This document shows, piece after piece, positions 2,467 through 64,000 of a stretch of 64,000 nucleotides of DNA; position 1 is the first letter of the stretch; each line of letters starts with the position of its first letter. The stretch comes from Candidatus Arcticimaribacter forsetii. Lineage in GTDB: Bacteria; Bacteroidota; Bacteroidia; Flavobacteriales; Flavobacteriaceae. Made by a program: the position numbers and the translations under genes. Below the pieces are notes generated by a model. That model was not told where the DNA came from. It ran no database searches and worked only from the letters and a program-made list of their open reading frames with translations. The stretch spans positions 682,001 to 746,000 of the forward strand of contig NZ_OU342399.1 in the NCBI RefSeq assembly GCF_910589745.1, in the 5' to 3' direction.

Positions 2467-4611
2467 TTAGTCTTTCGAAGGCTTTTCTTTTCTCTCTGGA
2501 CGAGGAAGTAAGGCCTTTCTAGAAACTTTTTCTTTTCTAGTTCTTGAGTCAATACCAAAGTATTTTACTTGCATAATGTCTCCCATGTTTACAACATCGG
2601 ATACATTTTCTGTTCGTTCCCAAGCTAATTCACTTACGTGAAGTAATACTTCGTTCCCAGGTGCTTCTGTATATTCTACAACAGCTCCAAAGTCTAACAT
2701 TTTAATCACCTTTACTTCGTAAGAATTTCCTACAACCGGCTTGAATGTTACGGAATCAATTTTAGCTTCAACCATTGCAATTCCTTCTGGTGAAGTTCCT
2801 AAAATCTCTATAATACCTTCTTCTGTAACTGGGTCTTCATTGATTACAATGGTACAACCAGATTCTTTTTGAAGTTCTTGTATTACTTTTCCTCCAGGGC
2901 CAATTAAAGCTCCGATGAATTCATTTGCAACTCTTCTGTTGATCATTTTCGGTGCATGCTCTTTTACATCAGCAGCAGGAGCTTCGATAGTTTCTACAAT
3001 CTTGTCTAGGATGTGTAAACGACCTGCTCGTGCTTGCTTTAACGCATTTACAAGTATTTCGTAAGACAATCCTTTGATTTTTATATCCATCTGACAAGCA
3101 GTAATACCTTCGGTAGTTCCAGTTACCTTAAAGTCCATATCTCCTAAGTGATCTTCATCTCCTAAGATATCAGATAATACAGCATAACGATCTCCATCAG
3201 AAATAAGACCCATTGCAATTCCAGAAACTGGTCTTGTAATCTTAATACCTGCATCCATCATTGCCATTGTTCCAGCACATACAGTTGCCATAGAAGAAGA
3301 TCCGTTAGATTCTAATACCTCTGACACAACTCTCACTGTGTAAGGACAGTCATCAGGAATCATTCCTTTTAGACCACGTTGTGCTAAGTTACCATGACCA
3401 ACTTCACGTCTAGAAGTTCCTCTAAGAGGACGCGCTTCTCCAGTACAAAAAGGTGGGAAGTTATAGTGTAAGTAAAAGTTTTCTTCACCTTCGTAAGAAG
3501 GCATGTCTATTTTGTTAGAGTCTCTTGATGTTCCTAGAGTAACCGTTGCTAAAGCTTGTGTTTCTCCACGTGTAAAAATAGACGAACCGTGCGTAGAGGG
3601 TAAATAATCTACTTCACACCAAATTGGTCTAATTTCGTCCGTCTTACGACCGTCTAAACGAATTCCTTCGCTAAGAGTTAACTCACGAATGGCTTCTTTT
3701 TCTGCTTTATTATAGTATCCGCCCACTAGGTGGCCAAACTCTTCCATTTCTTCTTCAGTGAAAGAAGCTTTTACTTCTTCTTTTACCTCAGCAAATGCAG
3801 CTCCTCGTTCTGCTTTAGAAGTTCCCTTCTTCGCAATAGCATAACATTTATCGTACGCCATGTCGTGGATGCGTTGCTGTAAATCTTCATTGGTTTCAGC
3901 AGTTTCATACTCACGAACCTCTTTCTTTCCGAAAGCTTCAGCTAAACGTAATTGAGCATCGATTTGAACTTTAATAGCATCATGAGCAAATTTAATTGCA
4001 TCAGCCATTTCTTCTTCAGATATCTCATCCATTTCTCCCTCAACCATCATTACTGAATCTGCAGAAGCTCCGATCATCATGTCGATGTCAGATGCTGCTA
4101 ATTGAGCACGGCTTGGGTTAATTACAAATGCTCCATCAACACGAGCTACACGAGCTTCAGAGATAGCGCATTCGAATGGAAAGTCACTTAATTGAATTGC
4201 AGCAGAAGCAGCTAATCCAGCTAAGGCGTCTGGCATAACCTCCTCGTCATGAGACATTAACTGAATCATAACCTGAGTTTCTGCGTGATAATCTTTTGGG
4301 AATAATGGACGTAATACACGATCCACTAAACGCATGGTAAGTACTTCACCATCACTAGGACGAGCTTCTCTTTTAAAGAATCCACCTGGATAACGACCTG
4401 CAGCTGCAAATTTCTCACGATAGTCTACCGTTAGTGGTAGAAAGTCTACATCAGCTTGTTTGTAATTAGATACAACCGTACATAACAACATGGCTTTACC
4501 CATTTGCACTACAACTGAACCGTGAGCTTGCTTTGCTAGCTTACCCGTTTCGATAGAGATTTCTCTTCCATCTCCGAGGTCTATAACCTCTTTAAAAACT
4601 TTTGGAATCAT
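2467..4611 (-). CDS. pnp: Polyribonucleotide nucleotidyltransferase (PNPase)
   Basis: PNPase is a 3'-to-5' phosphorolytic exoribonuclease that degrades mRNA and is usually trimeric. The 714 residues show the standard order: a first RNase PH domain (from [17 protein letters not shown]), a helical linker, a second catalytic RNase PH domain ([17 protein letters not shown], later [16 protein letters not shown]), a KH domain with its GPGGK loop, and a C-terminal S1 domain followed by a short basic tail. It lies downstream of rpsO on the same strand, a common order in bacteria. The 110-base gap between them has no TAnnTTTG box, so pnp is probably co-transcribed with rpsO. Confidence 0.98.
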
Positions 4612-4720: not shown

Positions 4721-4990
4721 TTATTTACGTAAACCTAATTCTTTAACAATTGCACGGTAACGTGTAATGTCTTTAGATTTTAAATAATCTAAAAGACTTC
4801 TTCTTTTACCTACTAGTTTTACTAGTGAACGTTCTGTGTTAAAGTCTTTTCTGTTACTTTTTAAGTGTTCTGACAAGTGGTTAATTCGGAACGAGAATAA
4901 AGCGATTTGCCCTTCTGCAGTTCCTGTGTCAGTTTTTGATTTTCCGTGTTTTTCGAAAATCTGTTCTTTGATTTCTTTTGAAATATACAT
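4721..4990 (-). CDS. rpsO: 30S ribosomal protein S15
   Basis: This 89-residue primary 16S rRNA-binding protein is full length. The conserved block LTEHLKxHxKDxxTRRxL appears here as LSEHLKSNRKDFNTERSL, followed by LVGKRRSLLDYL. It stands directly before pnp, the usual rpsO-pnp pairing, in which S15 often controls its own translation. A perfect -7 box lies about 48 bases before the ATG. Confidence 0.98.
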   Translation of the reverse strand: MYISKEIKEQIFEKHGKSKTDTGTAEGQIALFSFRINHLSEHLKSNRKDFNTERSLVKLVGKRRSLLDYLKSKDITRYRAIVKELGLRK

Positions 4991-5037
4991 GCTAATATTA
5001 TTTAATGATTGTTATGTATGCTTTTTATTAAGCGGTG

Positions 5038-5055: not shown

Positions 5056-5922
5056 TTATTTAACCTCACTTCTAACCGGTCGATTTAGTATCAGGTCGAT
5101 ATAAAGGTTTATCTCTCTTTTTAGATTTTTACGGTGGGCGATGAAATCTAAAAATCCTTTTTCAAGAAGGAATTCACTTCTCTGGAATCCTTCTGGTAAA
5201 TCTTTTCCGGTTGTGTCTTTAACAACACGAGGTCCAGCAAAAGCAATCAATGCACCCGGCTCCGCAATGTTGATATCGCCTAGCATTGCAAAAGAAGCTG
5301 TTGTTCCACCCGTTGTTGGGTCTGTGCAGAGTGAGATGTAAGGAAGTTTAGATTCTGCTAACTGACTCAGTTTAGCACTTGTTTTTGCTAGTTGCATCAA
5401 CGAAAAAGCTCCTTCCATCATTCGTGCTCCTCCGGACTTAGAAATGATGATTAAAGGCAAATGCTTTTCGATAGCGTAGTCTACTGCTCGAGCAATTTTT
5501 TCTCCAACAACAGAACCCATCGACCCGCCAATGAATCCAAAGTCCATACTTGCAATTACTACTTTTTTACCGTTGGATTTACCCACTGCAGTTCGAATAG
5601 CATCTTTGAGTCCAGACTTTTTAGTAGTTTGTTTCAGGCGGTCTTTATACTTTTTAGTGTCTTTAAAGTTCAAGAAATCTTTGGATACAACGTTCTCATC
5701 AAGTTCTTTGAATTGATTGTCGTCAAATAATATATCAAAATATTCTTTACTCCCAATCCGAACATGATATTCGTCTTCAGGACTTACATAAAAATTTTCT
5801 GCAAGTTCTTGAGTTTCTACAATTTTCCCAGTAGGAGTCTTGTACCAGAGACCTACAGGAATATCCTTTTTCTCTTCAGTTCGGGTCTGAATTCCCTGTT
5901 CACTACGTTTAAACCAACTCAT
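5056..5922 (-). CDS. accD: Acetyl-CoA carboxylase carboxyltransferase subunit beta, lacking zinc-ribbon cysteines
   Basis: This subunit works with AccA to transfer carboxyl from biotin to acetyl-CoA, the first step of fatty acid synthesis. The 288 residues carry the crotonase-like core ([47 protein letters not shown]). The N-terminal region aligns with the zinc ribbon of E. coli AccD, but all four cysteine positions are replaced: KTPTG stands where KCDSCG is expected (Thr29, Thr31), and VSPEDEYH where VCPKCDHH is expected (Ser47, Asp50). As I recall other flavobacterial AccD proteins share this loss. The gene follows fbaA by 14 bases and is probably in one operon with it. Confidence 0.97.
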
Positions 5923-5936
5923 TTCTTCCGTTTTGT

Positions 5937-7007
5937 TTAAGCTAATGTATCGATATTATTTAAATCCTCAAATGCTTGTTTCAATCTTTGTTTGAAAGTT
6001 TCTTCTCCAATTCTCAACCATTTTCTTGGATCGTAATATTTTTTGTTTGGTTGATCCTTTCCTTCAGGATTCCCAATCTGAGTTTTTAAGTATTCAACGT
6101 TATCCACCATATAATCTCTTATACCTTCTGTAAAGGCAAATTGTAAGTCTGTGTCTATGTTCATTTTGATAACACCATAGCCAATTGCTTCACGAATTTC
6201 TTCAACTGAAGATCCAGATCCACCGTGGAATACAAAATCAACTGTATTCGCTGGTAAATTATATTTCTCACTTATAAACTCTTGTGAGTTTTTAAGAATT
6301 TTAGGAGTAAGTTTTACGTTTCCAGGTTTGTAAACACCGTGTACATTTCCAAATGCCGCAGCAACTGTAAATTGATCACTTACTTTTCTTAACTCTTCGA
6401 ATGCATAAGCTACTTCTTCTGGTTGCGTGTATAATTTAGAAACATCTACGTCGCTATTGTCAACACCATCTTCTTCTCCACCAGTAATTCCTAATTCAAT
6501 TTCAAGGGTCATACCCATTTTAGACATACGTGCTAAGTAGGTTTTACAGATTTCAATATTTTCTTCTAAAGATTCTTCAGAAAGATCGATCATGTGGGAA
6601 CTGTATAATGATTTTCCAGTTTCCGCATAAAATTTTTCACCTGCATCTAATAATCCATCAATCCAAGGGAGTAGTTTTTTCGCACAGTGATCTGTATTTA
6701 ATATAACCGTTGCACCATAAGCTTCAGCTAATTCATGAATATGCTTAGCTCCTGCAACAGCACCTGCAATAGCTGCTTTTTGATCTGTGTTGTCTAAACT
6801 TTTCCCTGCGTTAAAAATAGCACCACCGTTAGAAAACTGAATAATAACAGGACTGTTTAGCTCTGCAGCTGTTTCTAAAACTGTGTTTACAGTATTATTA
6901 CCAATCACGTTTACTGCTGGAAGAGCAAATTTTTTCTCTTTAGCTAATGCGAAAACTTCTTGAACTTGTTTTCCTGTAATTACTCCCGAAGGGATTTTTG
7001 AACTCAT
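5937..7007 (-). CDS. fbaA: Class II fructose-bisphosphate aldolase
   Basis: This zinc-dependent aldolase splits fructose-1,6-bisphosphate into dihydroxyacetone phosphate and glyceraldehyde-3-phosphate in glycolysis, and makes it in gluconeogenesis. The 356 residues match the class IIA type. The active site shows NTDHCAKK (catalytic Asp106, zinc ligand His107), the metal-site stretch [21 protein letters not shown] and the phosphate loop FHGGSGSS. It is first in a likely two-gene unit with accD and has its own promoter box upstream. Confidence 0.97.
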
Positions 7008-10356: not shown

Positions 10357-11124
10357 CTATTCGAAAGTAAAATTAATGATAAGTCCTTGGGTAAATAGAT
10401 TGTTAATGTTTGAGGTCCAAGGACTGTTTGGATCTACATCCTGAATAATTTCGTTGTCTACAGAAAACACCCCTCTAATCGAGGGTGAAAACTTGAAATA
10501 AGGGAGGTAAAAATCTACCCCAAAACCAATTTCGTAGTTATAGGTCTGACTTTGAACTCTAAAAACATTACTCGAATTGTCGTCACTACTTTTTTTATTA
10601 CTAGAAAGATTAAAAGAAGTCGATATTCCACCAACAACATAGGGTTTGAAATTATTGACTCGAATTGAATTAAACTTTACTAAAAGTGGTAGGTGAATAT
10701 AGGTGGACTTAACTTCCCTTATTCGATCTTGGTCTGTCAATAGATTGGGAGTTGCTTCCGGGTATAATAAATCTCTTTGAGAATAATATAAACCAGGTTC
10801 AAAGCGAAGGTTTAAATATTTATTAATTCTTAAGTCGCCAATTAATCCAACATTAAAACCTGTGTTTTTGACTAATTCTATGTCTGGAAGTCCTCTTCCA
10901 TTGAGTGCTGAAGGCCCTGAATACGTTTTGTCGTATTCTATTTTGTAACCGTAATTATTAAAACCGACGAAATATCCGTAGTGTAAAAATTTTTGATCAA
11001 AATCTTGAAGGTTTTGAACACGCTCCCTAATAGTTGGGTATTGGGCGCATAGGGTACCTGCTCCCAAAAGGAAAAGTAAAAGTAAGAGTTTGTTTCTGTT
11101 TAACAGATTAGGGTTTTGTAGCAC
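10357..11124 (-). CDS. porT: PorT, type IX secretion-associated outer-membrane protein
   Basis: The 255-residue protein has a signal peptide (NKLLLLLFLLGAGTLC, cleavage before AQ) and a small beta-barrel body with alternating hydrophobic strands, including FVGFNNYGYKIEY and LNLRFEPGLYYSQR, ending in LIINFTFE. This matches the PorT family, needed for type IX secretion and, in gliders, for motility. Its start overlaps the end of the menaquinone methyltransferase gene by 17 bases, so the two are translationally linked; porT beside ubiE/menG is a familiar flavobacterial order. Family assignment is good; function follows from homologues. Confidence 0.9.
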   Translation of the reverse strand: MLQNPNLLNRNKLLLLLFLLGAGTLCAQYPTIRERVQNLQDFDQKFLHYGYFVGFNNYGYKIEYDKTYSGPSALNGRGLPDIELVKNTGFNVGLIGDLRINKYLNLRFEPGLYYSQRDLLYPEATPNLLTDQDRIREVKSTYIHLPLLVKFNSIRVNNFKPYVVGGISTSFNLSSNKKSSDDNSSNVFRVQSQTYNYEIGFGVDFYLPYFKFSPSIRGVFSVDNEIIQDVDPNSPWTSNINNLFTQGLIINFTFE

Positions 11125-11839
11125 AATATATTGAAGACACCCCTAAGGTTTGTGGATTGTCTTCTACCTTTATAAACCCTGTTTTTTCCAAAATATTGTT
11201 GAAATCTTTTCCGTGTGGAAAAACTGCTGCAGAATTAGAGAGGTATTTGTACGCTGCACGATCTCGGGTAAATAGTTTTCCCATCAAAGGAACGATTACT
11301 TGAGTGTGAAATTGATATCCTTGTTTGAAGGGGAATTTGGTCGGAACAGCTGTTTCAAGAACAACTAACGTTCCTCCAGGTTTTAAAACTCTGAATATCT
11401 CAGAAAGTCCAACCGTTAAATTTTCGAAGTTTCTAACCCCAAAAGCAACCGTTACCGCGTCAAAAGTATGATCCTCATAATTTAATGCTTCACTGTCTCC
11501 AATAACCATTTCAATGGTATGGTCAAGTTTCTGCTCTTTGACTTTATCTTTTCCAACAGATAACATGCCTGGCGAAATGTCTAACCCAACAATTTTAGCA
11601 GCTTTAGTTTCAACAAGAGCAATTGCTAAATCTCCAGTTCCTGTAGCAATATCAAGAATTGTTTCTGGTTTTTTGTCAATTAAAAGTTTTACAACCCTTT
11701 TCCTCCATTTTATATCAATTCCTAGAGAAATCATACGATTTAAAAAATCGTAATTAGTCGAAATGCCATCAAACATTTGAGTGACTTGTTTCTTCTTGGA
11801 ATCTTGCTGGTTAGCATAGGGTGTAACGCTCTTCTTCAT
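11108..11839 (-). CDS. ubiE: Demethylmenaquinone / ubiquinone C-methyltransferase
   Basis: This class I SAM methyltransferase makes the last methylation of menaquinone, the respiratory quinone expected in this phylum. Visible motifs are the SAM loop ILDIATGTGDLAIAL, VIGDSEALNYED and VAFGVRNFENL. I start it at the ATG at 11839 (MKKSVTPY). The upstream ATG at 11875 would place a perfect promoter (TTG, 19 bases, TATCTTTG) inside the gene. With this start the box ends only six bases before the ATG, implying a very short or absent leader. The name menG is equally valid. The gene overlaps porT by 17 bases. Confidence 0.95.
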   Translation of the reverse strand: MKKSVTPYANQQDSKKKQVTQMFDGISTNYDFLNRMISLGIDIKWRKRVVKLLIDKKPETILDIATGTGDLAIALVETKAAKIVGLDISPGMLSVGKDKVKEQKLDHTIEMVIGDSEALNYEDHTFDAVTVAFGVRNFENLTVGLSEIFRVLKPGGTLVVLETAVPTKFPFKQGYQFHTQVIVPLMGKLFTRDRAAYKYLSNSAAVFPHGKDFNNILEKTGFIKVEDNPQTLGVSSIYCATKP

Positions 11840-11845
11840 AAGTTG

Positions 11846-11875
11846 CAAAGATAGATAATGAAGAAATTTTATCAA
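11846..11875 (-). promoter_or_regulatory. Full promoter for ubiE-porT (TTG-N19-TATCTTTG)
   Basis: On the minus strand a TTG (-33) at 11873-11875 is followed by exactly 19 bases and TATCTTTG (-7) at 11846-11853. This is one of the two best complete Bacteroidota promoters in the window. The box ends six bases before the ATG, so the mRNA is probably leaderless or nearly so. Confidence 0.82.
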
Positions 11876-49313: not shown

Positions 49314-50054
49314 TTATTTCTGAGAGTTAACAGCAAGGTTGTAAACAACTAAACCGAACCCGATTTTGTTAATTGCATCACCAATGTTGTAAATAACATC
49401 AAGGTTTAAGGCCATTCCGAAGAATTCACCTTCTGCACCATACCATCCTGCAGTTCCTGCCATGTATCCGATTGGGTAAATAGCCCATCCTATAACAACG
49501 AACTTAACTAAAGTGTTGTGAGCAGATTCTACTGCACCACCCGCAGCTTGAGCTAATTGTGCAGCTCCACCTTTCCATATTTCGTAAACTATAGCGAAAT
49601 AAGCAGCACCTGAGATTGCACCCCATACAGCTGGTCCCATACCAGTCATGTAAACAGCTTCTCCAAGGTATCCTGTAACAAGCATGATAACAGATAAGAA
49701 AATCATTTTCCACATCAAGCTTCTGGTTGCACCAGCAGCTCTAAGAATAAGATAAAACTCAACACACATTAATGGTACTGTAAGGATCCAGTCTACATAA
49801 CGGAAGAATGTTGGAGATTCTCCAATTGCAGCCCAATAATCACGCATGTACCAATAGTGAACAGCAGCTATGAATGTAATTAATCCAGAGATCAGGATTG
49901 AAGTTCTCCATTTGTTATCAAATGAATTCATTGATAGGAAGAAAAAAGCAGATGCAGCCATCATTGCCATACATCCAACGAAGAACGTGAAACCTACATA
50001 GTCGGTCGCCCCCATTGCTTTAATTTCTACCATTAAGCTTAAAAAATTTTCCAT
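49314..50054 (-). CDS. Green-type proteorhodopsin, light-driven proton pump
   Basis: This seven-helix retinal protein of the inner membrane pumps protons outward in light. The 246 residues contain the third-helix motif RYVDWILTVPLMCVEFY, with proton acceptor Asp88, Thr92 and donor Glu99 (the DTE pump signature), His66 beside the acceptor (AAVHYWYMRD), and the retinal Schiff-base lysine Lys230 in DAINKIGFG. The spectral-tuning position (105 in the reference protein) is Met96, as in green-absorbing flavobacterial pumps. The divergent blh gene supplies retinal from beta-carotene. The carotenoid genes themselves are not in the window. Confidence 0.97.
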   Translation of the reverse strand: MENFLSLMVEIKAMGATDYVGFTFFVGCMAMMAASAFFFLSMNSFDNKWRTSILISGLITFIAAVHYWYMRDYWAAIGESPTFFRYVDWILTVPLMCVEFYLILRAAGATRSLMWKMIFLSVIMLVTGYLGEAVYMTGMGPAVWGAISGAAYFAIVYEIWKGGAAQLAQAAGGAVESAHNTLVKFVVIGWAIYPIGYMAGTAGWYGAEGEFFGMALNLDVIYNIGDAINKIGFGLVVYNLAVNSQK

Positions 50055-50156: not shown

Positions 50157-51044
50157 TTGATTTTACAGAATAAAATTTATCAGATTACTATTATTTTAAC
50201 ACTTTTATTGATCCTATTAGGATACTTTCTTAATGCAAGTTTCACGGACTTTATAGCACTATTTTTTATTCTCACAGCTGGAATAATTCATGGGGCAAAT
50301 GATATCCGTTTATTGCAGAAAAAATATCAAAGCACCCAATTCAATTTTTTTATAATGCTACTTTTATTTTACGTTTTTGTAGTTGTAGCAGGTGCAATTC
50401 TGTTTTTTTATGTTCCTTCTGCTGCCCTTATCTTTTTTATTTTGTTTAGTGGCTTTCATTTTGGTCAACAGCATTGGTCTTCTTACTTGAATCGAAAAAA
50501 TAAAGAATCGTTTTTAAAACAAGTAGGTTATACTGTATATGGTTTGCTTGTGTTTGGTTTGTTGTTTAGTCTTCAAAGCTCAGATGTCTCTTTTGTTATT
50601 GAAAATATAACAGGAAAGGTCATCCATGAAGACGTTTACTATTACAGTGCTGTCTTTCTAATTTTATCCCATTGTATTTTATCTATTTTTCTTCCAGTGA
50701 GTTTCAAGGTTTTTGTAAAAGAATTAATAGTTCTGTTGTTGCTCGCGATTCTATTTGGAACAACGAGTCTACTGTTTTCATTTGGAGTTTATTTTGTTTT
50801 TTGGCACAGTATACCTTCAATTCGAGAACAATTAATTTATTTGGACGGGGAGGTGTCACTGAGAACTGTCAAGGGTTATGTCAGATCATCACTTGTATAT
50901 TGGCTTTTTTCTTTAATTGGTTTATTCTTGTTTTACTATTATTTGGATCTTGATTCTGAGTATTTCGTTCCTTTATTTTTCACCTTTCTAGCTGCCATTA
51001 CGTTTCCTCATACGGTAGTAATTGGGATGTTAAAAACAGAATAG
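50157..51044 (+). CDS. blh: Brp/Blh-family beta-carotene 15,15'-dioxygenase
   Basis: This membrane enzyme cleaves beta-carotene into two retinals for proteorhodopsin. The 295-residue protein is almost wholly hydrophobic, with about eight membrane segments. The histidines expected to hold the iron are present: His45 in IIHGANDIRL, His101 and His106 in GFHFGQQHW, His217 in VFWHSIPS, and a further His285 in FPHTVVIG. The start is a TTG; no ATG lies upstream in frame, and the next in-frame ATG would remove the first helix and His45. The gene is 102 bases from, and divergent to, proteorhodopsin, so the two form one functional locus. Confidence 0.93.
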   Translation: MILQNKIYQITIILTLLLILLGYFLNASFTDFIALFFILTAGIIHGANDIRLLQKKYQSTQFNFFIMLLLFYVFVVVAGAILFFYVPSAALIFFILFSGFHFGQQHWSSYLNRKNKESFLKQVGYTVYGLLVFGLLFSLQSSDVSFVIENITGKVIHEDVYYYSAVFLILSHCILSIFLPVSFKVFVKELIVLLLLAILFGTTSLLFSFGVYFVFWHSIPSIREQLIYLDGEVSLRTVKGYVRSSLVYWLFSLIGLFLFYYYLDLDSEYFVPLFFTFLAAITFPHTVVIGMLKTE

Positions 51045-60122: not shown

Positions 60123-63100
60123 TTGATTAAAAGATTATCTGTATTCTATAATTTCCTGATACTAGGAGGGTTACTCGTGTTTCCTTTTGTAAATACACTC
60201 GCACAGTCAGAATCTTATGACTTAAGATTGAACGACAGAAGTCAGATTATTACGCCTGCACAAGGAACTACACAACAATTTTGTTCAAGTTCCTCTACCA
60301 ATTTAACTTTTCAAGTAAATAATGACGGAATTGATGCTTTAAGTTTAACGTCTACTTCGATGTTAGCTACTTTGACCGTTACAGGAAATACCTTTTCGTC
60401 CTCAAGTTCTAATATTGCTACGGCCTCATTTAGTACAACTTCAGCAGGAAGTCCGCTTGCAAACACTATTGGAGCTGGAAGTTTTGCTGTTTTTGATTGG
60501 CCAACTGCATTACAGTTTTCAAGCACAGGATCTACAACAATAAATATTGAAGTTGCTCCGTTTGGAGGAAGTGATACTAACACCTCAAACAACGATCAGA
60601 GCTACGAAGTTTTGGTACTTGCAAATCCAACACAACCTACCTTAAGTTCTAACTTTGGTTCAGGAACAATAACTATCTGCCAAGGAGATTCTGTTCAATT
60701 AACTTCTTCTGCCGTAGGTGATGAGTATGAATTTTATAGAAATGGTGTTCTATTGGGTCCTCGTCAATCATCAGTTTCGTTTACGACTTCTAATTTAAAC
60801 CATGCCGATGTAATTAATGTTATAGCTTATTTTACAACAAATTGTTCTTCAGTTAACTCTGCAGCGATAAATGTAATTTCACAATCTTTACCCGATGGGA
60901 GTATTATTTCTGACGCTAATAACAACGTAGCTTGTGAGGGTCAGTCTGTTCTTTTTACGGCTGCTGATCTCGGTAGCAATCCGAGCCCTTATTTTGAATT
61001 TCTAGTAAATAATGTATCGGTTCAAGCCAGTTCAACCACTTCAACTTACACTTATCCTTCGGTTTTAACTGATAACGTGGTTGTAACAGTTAGAACATGG
61101 GCATCCAGCGCAACAACATGTTACGACGAGGATTCAATAACTTTAAGATTAAATTCTGTCTCTGGTTCAAATCAAATTAATGGAGCTCAGACTATATGTT
61201 CCGGAGAAGATCCTTCTGAAATTGCAAATACATCGGTTTATACTGCTGATTTATCTTCAGAAGGTGCTGTTTTATCTTACCAATGGCAAAGCAGAACCTC
61301 GTCCAGTATATTTGCCGATATTACTGGTGCTACTTCTTTAACATATGATCCGGGTGTTCTTACTCAGACTACAGGATATAGAAGGTTAGTTTTTTCTACT
61401 TTTAATTTAGTTCAGTGTAATACGCTAACAGCTTCAGCAACTTCTAATGTGGTTACAATAACAGTAGATCCTAATTCTACTGCAGTTTTAACGTCTAATG
61501 CTACCAACCGTACTGTGTGTTCAGGAGATGATTTAATTCTTGACGCCTCTTCATCATTGAATGCAGCAAGTTATCGTTTTTACATAGATGGAAACCCTCA
61601 GGGGAGTGGACCTCAATCAACAGCTACTTTTACTTTAAATGCAGGAACTTTTTCAGATTCTTCATCGATCACAGTAAGAGCTTATCAAGGAGCTTCAGGG
61701 TCGGGTTGTTATGATGATACAAGTTTTGTTATTAGAATTAATTCGTTAACAGGCACAAATCAAATAGGAAATTCACAGAATGTATGCTCTGGTGAAACTC
61801 CCGTTGCTTTTACCAGTATATCTACACCAACAAGTGATAGACTATCAGATGGAGCGGTATATTCATATCAATGGCAGAGTAGAATAGGGTCTAATTCATA
61901 TTCAAATATTATTGGAGCTACTAATGAAATTTTTACACCTAGCTCAGTTGCAACTACGACGGACTACAGACGTTTAACAACGAGCACATTCAATAGTGTT
62001 ACTTGTAGTATCATTTCGTCTTCTGTTCAACTCACCGTTGTAGGAGGAGTTGTTCCTTCGGCAAGTTTTATAACATCAAATCCAAATGATGTGATCTGTA
62101 GTGATGATTCAGTTTTGATCGATGCAAGCACAACTGTAGGTGGGGCTAGTTATTCTTATTTTATTAATGGATTATTGCAATCTGGTCCTACAACCTCAGA
62201 TACTTATACTATTCCTGCTGGAACTTTATCTGATAGCGATTCAGTTTCTGTTATTGCATATTCTGGATTAGCGGGTGCAGGCTGTACAGATACAGCAACA
62301 AGAACATTAAGGGTTAACAGTATTACTGGAACAACTACATTAAGTGGTGCTCAAACCATTTGTAGTGGAGATACGCCTAGTCAACTGACTGGTTCGTCAG
62401 CTTCTTCCCCTATTTCTGGTACTATTTCGTATCAGTGGCAGAGCAGAACCGGTACAAATAGCTTCACAGATATATCTGGAGCTACTTCAACTACTTTTTC
62501 TCCTCCAGCATTAAATGTTACAACAGATTTTCAACGAATCTCTACTTCTATATTCAATGGTGTTTCATGCTCTGTTTCAAGTTCAATTGTTCGGGTAACA
62601 GTAGAAGCTGCACCTAGTATTTCTTTATCTGGAGGTTCATCAGCTTTTTGTCCAGGCGATACTGTAGTTTTTACAGCTTCTGGAGGAGTTAGTTATGAGT
62701 ATTTTGTCGATGGAATTAGCCAAGGAGCAACAACAACCAATGATACTCAATCCATTACTGGCCTTACGAATGGACAGGTGGTTACTGTGGTTGGATCTAA
62801 TGCTCAAGGATGTTTTGCTACCTCTACTCCTATTTCAGTAACTGTGACACCAATGCCCTCAGCAGCTATAAACTCAAATGCTACAGCCAACACTATATGC
62901 TCCGGAGATAGCGCAATTTTCACAGCATCACCCGCTGGAGCTGGATATACCTACAGATTTTACATAGATGGAATTCTTCAAAATTTAGGAGTTTCTACCA
63001 ATACTTTTGATTCATCTCTTGCCACATACACCTTATTAGACTCCAGTGTAGTTTCAGTTTTTGTTGAAAATGCTGCATCCTGTGTAAGTTCTTCCTCATT

Positions 63101-64000
63101 AACCTTAAGGGTACTATCTACAACAGGATCAAATACGATTAGTGGCACAGCTACTATTTGTGTAGGTGGAGACCCAGAAGAATTCGATAGTTTGTCTACT
63201 CCAGTAGCGGTAGCAGCTGGATCTGTTTTAAGTTACCAATGGCAGAGTAGAACGAATACAGGAGTTTTTGCTGATATACCTGGAGCAACTTCAGTTCGAT
63301 ATGATGCCCCACAACTTTCTGCAACCACCGCTTTTAGAAGGATAGTATATACATCTTTGAACTCTGTAAGTTGTCCTGATTCTTCAAATATAATTTCTGG
63401 AGCTTCAAATACAGTAACGATTACAGTAGACTCAACAGCACTTCCTGTAGTAAGTTTTGTTTCTGGTGTTTCAAACGATGTTGCTTGTGCAGGAGATAAT
63501 TTAACATTTGATGCTTCATCAACAACTGGAGCAAATAGTTTTGAATACTTTATAAACAATATAAGCCAAGGGCCATCAAGCACTGCAACTACTTTATTTG
63601 TTCCGGCTGGAACCCTAGCTGATAATTCAACTGTTCGGGTTCAAGCTACTTCGACCACTGCTTCTCCATGTTTTAGTGAGTTTACTATTACAATGAGAGT
63701 TAATTCATTTACTGGTTCCAATACCGTAAGTAATGATCAAATTGTTTGTGAAAACAATATGCCTACTGCATTTACTAGTCTCAGTGTTCCAACACCTGAC
63801 ATCTCGGGAGCAGTTGTAACCTATCAATGGCAAAGTAGAACAGGTTCTAATCCATTTACAAATATTGCGAGTACTAATTCATCTACTTATTCACCTCCAT
63901 TATTATCTACTTCAACAGATTTTAGAAGAATTGTAAATTCTACTTTTAACGGAGTTACATGTACTGATATTAGTAATTCTTTATCGATAACTGTAAATCC
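60123..64000 (+). CDS. Giant secreted Ig-like repeat protein (3' end outside window)
   Basis: The frame is open for 1292 codons up to the window edge. It starts at a TTG with a clear signal peptide (IKRLSVFYNFLILGGLLVF, cleavage at TLA-QS); an in-frame TGA lies at 60105-60107 and no ATG lies between. After a first domain of about 140 residues the protein repeats two modules. One reads CSGD...YRFYIDG..QG, the other has QTICSG..P and YQWQSRT. YQWQSR occurs at residues 386, 582, 770, 1038 and 1234. Composition is Ser/Thr-rich with one cysteine pair per module. Such proteins are usually type IX secretion cargo acting at the surface; the C-terminal sorting domain would be beyond the window. Ligand unknown. 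Confidence 0.9.
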   Translation, partial: MIKRLSVFYNFLILGGLLVFPFVNTLAQSESYDLRLNDRSQIITPAQGTTQQFCSSSSTNLTFQVNNDGIDALSLTSTSMLATLTVTGNTFSSSSSNIATASFSTTSAGSPLANTIGAGSFAVFDWPTALQFSSTGSTTINIEVAPFGGSDTNTSNNDQSYEVLVLANPTQPTLSSNFGSGTITICQGDSVQLTSSAVGDEYEFYRNGVLLGPRQSSVSFTTSNLNHADVINVIAYFTTNCSSVNSAAINVISQSLPDGSIISDANNNVACEGQSVLFTAADLGSNPSPYFEFLVNNVSVQASSTTSTYTYPSVLTDNVVVTVRTWASSATTCYDEDSITLRLNSVSGSNQINGAQTICSGEDPSEIANTSVYTADLSSEGAVLSYQWQSRTSSSIFADITGATSLTYDPGVLTQTTGYRRLVFSTFNLVQCNTLTASATSNVVTITVDPNSTAVLTSNATNRTVCSGDDLILDASSSLNAASYRFYIDGNPQGSGPQSTATFTLNAGTFSDSSSITVRAYQGASGSGCYDDTSFVIRINSLTGTNQIGNSQNVCSGETPVAFTSISTPTSDRLSDGAVYSYQWQSRIGSNSYSNIIGATNEIFTPSSVATTTDYRRLTTSTFNSVTCSIISSSVQLTVVGGVVPSASFITSNPNDVICSDDSVLIDASTTVGGASYSYFINGLLQSGPTTSDTYTIPAGTLSDSDSVSVIAYSGLAGAGCTDTATRTLRVNSITGTTTLSGAQTICSGDTPSQLTGSSASSPISGTISYQWQSRTGTNSFTDISGATSTTFSPPALNVTTDFQRISTSIFNGVSCSVSSSIVRVTVEAAPSISLSGGSSAFCPGDTVVFTASGGVSYEYFVDGISQGATTTNDTQSITGLTNGQVVTVVGSNAQGCFATSTPISVTVTPMPSAAINSNATANTICSGDSAIFTASPAGAGYTYRFYIDGILQNLGVSTNTFDSSLATYTLLDSSVVSVFVENAASCVSSSSLTLRVLSTTGSNTISGTATICVGGDPEEFDSLSTPVAVAAGSVLSYQWQSRTNTGVFADIPGATSVRYDAPQLSATTAFRRIVYTSLNSVSCPDSSNIISGASNTVTITVDSTALPVVSFVSGVSNDVACAGDNLTFDASSTTGANSFEYFINNISQGPSSTATTLFVPAGTLADNSTVRVQATSTTASPCFSEFTITMRVNSFTGSNTVSNDQIVCENNMPTAFTSLSVPTPDISGAVVTYQWQSRTGSNPFTNIASTNSSTYSPPLLSTSTDFRRIVNSTFNGVTCTDISNSLSITVN

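Follow-up and report, generated by a model that had tools for sequence, protein, structure and literature searches.

Type-B substrates of the type IX secretion system leave the cell via SprA and remain attached to their cognate PorP/SprF protein, which is usually encoded just downstream (PMC12618676, PMC9143113). For the adhesin SprB, the twin-cysteine pair in the C-tail of SprF is required for sustained helical gliding movement (PMC12635249). For fixed type-B proteins, a link to the wall through an adjacent PorE-like protein has been proposed, and pairs without a PorE-like neighbour have been postulated for mobile, not fixed, adhesins (PMC9143113). Another described giant is GhpA (grappling hook protein A) of Aureispira sp. 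CCB-QB1 (PDB 9FLP and others), a type IX secreted heptamer with a chain of 5,898 residues.

Here, we describe a giant repeat protein from Candidatus Arcticimaribacter forsetii, a marine flavobacterium of the NS5 group with a small genome. Its gene begins in a stretch of 64,000 bases (the window; G000:C1:682001-746000), which is part of a single-contig genome of 2,034,069 bases.

Extent and start of the giant gene

In the window, an open frame runs from 60123 to 63998 (+) and passes the window edge after 1,292 codons, as the initial annotation had described; its start codon is TTG. When the downstream sequence was joined, the full gene was one uninterrupted frame of 8,173 codons with a single terminal stop, so a stop or frameshift just beyond the window is ruled out. 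The window holds the 5' part (60123..64000, +; aa 1-1292), about the first sixth of the protein, and the gene ends at G000:C1:766644 (L009:623 to L010:5144). The joined frame matches the window exactly across its 3,878 bases. The protein has a calculated mass of ~849 kDa and a pI of 4.05; serine and threonine make up 27% of its residues and lysine 0.4%.

A putative Sec signal peptide (MIKRLSVFYNFLILGGLLVFPFVNTLAQ; 60123..60206, +) begins with the TTG start. It was judged by eye from a positive n-region, a hydrophobic core and LAQ. Near the signal peptide, the first possible in-frame start codon is TTG in five of five species (window 60123; L040, L043, L044, L046), and no in-frame ATG precedes the signal peptide core in any of them. 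The sequence upstream of the start (ACAATATTTATATAAATTAGACGTT) is conserved in part. The N-terminal domain (aa 29-171; 60207..60635, +) contains one cysteine and is conserved in four orthologs. It had no credible family match.

Modules and their order

Cutting by cysteine pairs divided residues 172-4458 into 46 modules. Type B was assigned from the YQW/YEW motif, and types A and C from the module tree. The window contains twelve of these modules, all on the forward strand. Module 1 is a C-like Ig module (aa 172-256; 60636..60890). It is followed by A-B pairs: modules 2-3 (60891..61475, YQWQSR at 61278), modules 4-5 (61476..62054, YQWQSR at 61866) and modules 6-7 (62055..62606, YQWQSR at 62430). 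Module 8 (62607..62855) is of type C. Modules 9-10 (A', B; 62856..63443, YQWQSR at 63234) and modules 11-12 (A, B; 63444..63995, YQWQSR at 63822) complete the part inside the window. The module after the window edge (aa 1292-1374) is of type C again.

The back-translated YQWQS pattern was found exactly at these five positions and nowhere else, and it had no matches in 100 shuffles. The steps of 588, 564, 804 and 588 bases reported earlier are exact. The additional Ig-like module claimed for the 804-base step is also real: it is module 8 (aa 829-911), which matches Ig_7. The initial annotation had gone further and read the array as regular, with a different domain inserted and the spacing changed in one place. 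This reading does not hold. Past the window, the step of +80 residues returns regularly, and the change appeared to be single because the window edge cuts the array. The YQW steps over the whole array are 196, 188, 268, 196, 269, 195, 269, 190, 186, 190, 275, 279, 278, 278, 277 and 280 residues, after which the spacing falls to about 95-105. The module order is C A B A B A B C A B A B C A B A B C A B A B A B A B (C A B) x6 B B, meaning that units of two modules (A-B) and of three (C-A-B) return along it, with C present in about every second unit and later in every unit.

The C module occurs 10 times in the array. The YQW steps of orthologs alternate too (196, 268, 266, 199, 266, 195 in G001; 189, 269, 462, 190, 268 in G002a). 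As the extra C module recurs along the array, the 804-base step does not mark a lone insertion event, and a single foreign insertion of module C was rejected. Module C is akin to module A (shuffle z about 7 for A against C) and not of foreign origin.

Relatedness and fold of the modules

When the modules inside the window were aligned, they proved to be related within type. Identity was 38-51% between B modules (median shuffle z 20.5) and 26-44% between A modules (median shuffle z 13.1), which rules out that the units are unrelated Ig-like domains. A against B was near background (shuffle z 1.6). In a comparison with Ig_7, 'Ig-like domain CHU_C associated' (PF19081, cut-off 27.3 bits), module C qualified with 28.3 bits and A' nearly did with 26.5 bits, whereas A (14.0 bits) and B (16.3 bits) fell short.

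The structure of the C-A'-B unit of modules 8-10 was predicted with AlphaFold from 21 aligned C-A-B units. The model consists mainly of beta modules and has a mean pLDDT of 90.9. Hence, an Ig-like fold is confidently predicted for the array modules, which would form a bead rod. In the alignment, six cysteine positions vary little or not at all and are spaced as one pair per module, and the pair of every module is invariant in the 21 units. The cysteine pairs previously assigned to each unit are thus present, but one pair belongs to each module and not merely to each unit. These pairs probably form disulfides.

C-terminus, adjacent PorP/SprF gene and probable secretion

The view that the protein is a surface protein secreted by the type IX system is strengthened by its C-terminus, by the adjoining PorP/SprF gene, by SprA in the genome (TIGR04189, 2,642 bits) and by a porT candidate in the window. 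The downstream sequence, which had been needed to see the C-terminal domain, ends in a CHU_C-like type-B sorting domain. The match to CHU_C (PF13585) has 25.5 bits (E 1.5e-5) and lies below the cut-off of 27. The motif NVFTPN.D..ND...YDYRGN...GWDG...PYYI...SGTF is conserved in 18 relatives. In the whole-genome search, this C-terminus was not among the TIGR04131 matches, which makes it a divergent member of the type-B sorting domains.

The start of the PorP/SprF gene (L010:5144-6163, 339 aa) overlaps the giant gene by one base. Its product is barely over the cut-off of TIGR03519 (91.4 bits, cut-off 90.55) and matches PF11751 with 69.1 bits (E 5.8e-19). The gene order cysM - giant - PorP is kept in the relatives with an upstream contig. 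Orthologous giant-PorP pairs were found in Candidatus Arcticimaribacter and in bins and single cells of other marine Flavobacteriaceae. Of 19 genomes from the genus, 14 had this PorP, including all four that are at least 90% complete; at E <= 1e-60, it occurred in 10 of the 237 genera sampled in the family.

The porT gene reported for the window has a candidate at 10357..11124 (-). It encodes 255 aa, matches OMP_b-brl_2 (PF13568) with 82.6 bits and overlaps a methyltransferase frame read as ubiE (11108-11875). A second frame considered as porT, at 49314-50054 (-), was rejected, as it is a rhodopsin (PF01036, 137.6 bits). It adjoins a Brp/Blh beta-carotene dioxygenase at 50157-51044 (+) (TIGR03753); by sequence, the two are a proteorhodopsin-type pair.

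Taken from its sequence, the giant protein would belong to the known giant type-B adhesins. It would be made with a Sec signal peptide and cross the outer membrane through SprA. The type-B C-terminal domain would then hold it to the PorP/SprF barrel encoded directly downstream, and the conserved C-terminal stalk (about 3,260-3,630 aa) would raise the distal array of 46 disulfide-bearing Ig-like modules. An Ig module is about 4 nm long, and at this length per module the protein could reach roughly 0.3 um from the cell. Cells of A. forsetii are 0.5-1 um long (PMC9122927).

Anchoring on the cell

A statically anchored giant type-B adhesin whose array was lengthened by tandem duplication is the best explanation of the locus, and we consider it probable. 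Part of the evidence on anchoring comes from the PorP/SprF protein, the likely shuttle. Its last about 17 residues (YRRNxRGxYxRLxxDNYY) are nearly invariant among the PorP orthologs (L012-L039), even at 60% whole-protein identity. The last 60 residues contained no cysteine in 28 of 28 orthologous PorP/SprF proteins. None of the five PorP/SprF proteins of this genome has the twin cysteines in its C-tail. No PorE-like gene lies beside the giant-PorP pair at this locus, whereas two other type-B loci of the genome do have an OmpA-domain PorE-like neighbour. The conserved, cysteine-free shuttle tail fits neither anchoring mode proposed for type-B proteins. Static rather than gliding attachment seems favoured, with the conserved tail as a possible docking element.

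Alternatively, the protein could be an SprB-like gliding adhesin that PorP/SprF carries along GldJKN tracks for movement. The genome does encode SprA, GldJ (826.7 bits), GldK (575.9 bits) and GldD (243.2 bits), the three Gld proteins all over cut-off, and the pair resembles sprB-sprF in having no PorE-like gene beside it (PMC9143113). However, the missing SprF-type tail cysteines argue against movement, as does the NS5 study, whose authors describe these bacteria as non-gliding (PMC9122927). We therefore regard a gliding adhesin as unlikely. All three Gld proteins are nevertheless well conserved in this lineage, which has been described as unable to glide.

A more far-reaching possibility is a third kind of type-B anchorage, with no PorE-like neighbour, no SprF-type cysteine link and a nearly invariant shuttle C-tail of its own, in a plankton-living bacterium described as non-gliding. 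The protein would then be displayed as a GhpA-like capture filament that changes in length through tandem amplification at one hotspot. This combination we judge to be distinctly unlikely.

Similarity to GhpA and RemA

Of the ten solved structures that best fitted the C-A-B model, eight were GhpA fragments (TM by query length 0.49-0.63), and the best PDB matches were bacterial rod proteins. The array profile matched GhpA with E 4.6e-73, in 21 stretches over about residues 1,230-4,840. This raises the question of whether the protein is itself a GhpA-like capture hook or filament, several copies of which would be bundled as a rod gripping cells or particles. Yet the profiles of the N-terminal domain, three stalk stretches and the C-terminus gave no GhpA match, meaning that among the parts profiled only the array modules match. 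Moreover, the B module profile also matched the F. johnsoniae adhesin RemA (E 1.1e-18), and these modules are thus a shared currency. The array appears to be built from the same modules as GhpA; membership of the hook family is not thereby established, and a capture hook seems very unlikely. The matches depended on profiles: single-sequence phmmer searches with both protein halves against PDB sequences found nothing.

The fold search with a stalk module gave weak, scattered matches (TM by query length <=0.39 among the best-ranked). A match of the ZirU family (NF040485, 101.9 bits, cut-off 100) to the array was disbelieved, as its best stretch covers 45 residues of a repetitive protein. The matches to WSS_VP, SidM, PCSK9 and DUF4183 were below cut-off and judged to be chance.

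Five copies of a segment of ~90 residues interrupt the stalk (aa 4574-4665, 4907-5001, 5346-5435, 5655-5744 and 6796-6884; L011). Their positions are conserved in the genus, and the one modelled has a beta-beta-alpha-beta-beta order. They had no credible Pfam match. Unlike module C, they look like real insertions into domains.

Growth of the array by tandem duplication

The suggestion of the initial annotation that the array grew by duplication and recombination is borne out by exact tandem copies. Two C-A-B units, at residues 3243-3520 and 3521-3798, match each other at 834 of 834 bases. The copy preceding them is identical at 821 of 834, and its 13 differences are mostly at one end. Neighbouring units were 99.4-99.9% identical within G002 and 99.8-100% within G003, compared with at most 73% across species (alignments >100 bases). 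In the module tree, amplified units cluster by species, and flanking modules cluster by position across species.

Lengths were counted from a conserved stalk landmark in five species with one genome each. For G000 (this genome), G001, G004, G003 and G002, the distal part comprised 4,906, 3,255, 4,743, 4,168 and 5,803 aa, and the C-terminal stalk part comprised 3,267, 3,257, 3,626, 3,263 and 3,332 aa, respectively. Stalk windows were nearly all collinear between species; array windows were not. The variation in length thus lies in the N-terminal part with the array and not in the stalk. The arrays of the metagenome bins G002 and G003 contain frame breaks, and the pieces were used as found, so their exact unit counts are uncertain.

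On this sequence evidence, the middle section of the protein grew through recent, exact tandem duplications, and it did so independently in three or more related species. The C-A-B block in the second half of the array was amplified repeatedly, presumably via homologous recombination or slippage between near-identical copies, and a changed array length could alter reach or binding valency. As one three-module block was amplified in tandem in three species, the length evolution of a giant adhesin becomes directly measurable. An assembly artefact, with a true array that is shorter or longer, is highly improbable as the source of the identical units. Two copies do match base for base, and the relatives G002 and G003 have frame breaks in their arrays. 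Against this, the genome was assembled as a single contig, 13 of 834 bases set the first copy apart, two other species show like amplification, and the cultured A. forsetii AHE01FL (2.03 Mbp), with which we infer this genome to be identical, was sequenced by PacBio and Illumina (PMC9122927). Tandem Repeats Finder reported no array in the giant gene, because the true periods (>=834 bases) exceed its 500-base limit.

Other type-B loci in the genome

Five giant or large type-B proteins occupy about 3.7% of the 2.03-Mb genome. The NS5 flavobacteria are abundant, have small genomes and are reportedly free-living, yet giant type-B proteins and gliding-track genes are kept here. A larger type-B frame of 9,219 codons lies at G000:C1:1342265-1369924 (-) (L052/L053). 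Its product shows more than 50 DUF7507 matches as well as DUF11 and a C-type lectin domain, and it ends in CHU_C; PorP and an OmpA protein of the PorE-like type are encoded next. The hook-like protein GhlA of Chloroflexota likewise has 49 DUF11 domains.

Near the giant gene, a 223-aa frame (L010:6291-6962; G000:C1:767791-768462) combines a signal peptide, an SprB repeat (PF13573, 30.6 bits) and a PorP C-tail, the latter 58% identical to the intact neighbouring PorP. It resembles the remnant of another adhesin-PorP pair that lost its interior by deletion. At the matching place, L013, L014, L016, L019, L030 and L037 carry partial copies of a second PorP.

Comparison with known systems

The gene is real and well formed, and its product adds a new member to the already known class of giant type-B adhesins, with a clear case of repeated exact amplification of units and an unusual shuttle tail. 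Like SprB-SprF of Flavobacterium johnsoniae, it encodes a giant protein with a type-B C-terminus, with a porP/sprF-family gene directly downstream and no PorE-like neighbour. Unlike in SprB-SprF, the shuttle has no C-tail cysteine pair, and both the C-terminus and PorP are at the edge of their family models. SprB also differs in its repeats: here, the array consists of Ig-like modules, and SprB-repeat matches are weak and confined to the stalk. With RemA (PDB 8GL6 chain D), the protein shares B-type modules, whereas the RemA chain has 1,436 residues and the alternating C-A-B array was not seen in the match. With GhpA, it shares an extended series of Ig-like modules from one family in a type IX giant. 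It differs from GhpA at the N-terminus, stalk and C-terminus, where no match was found, and in length (8,173 vs 5,898 residues).
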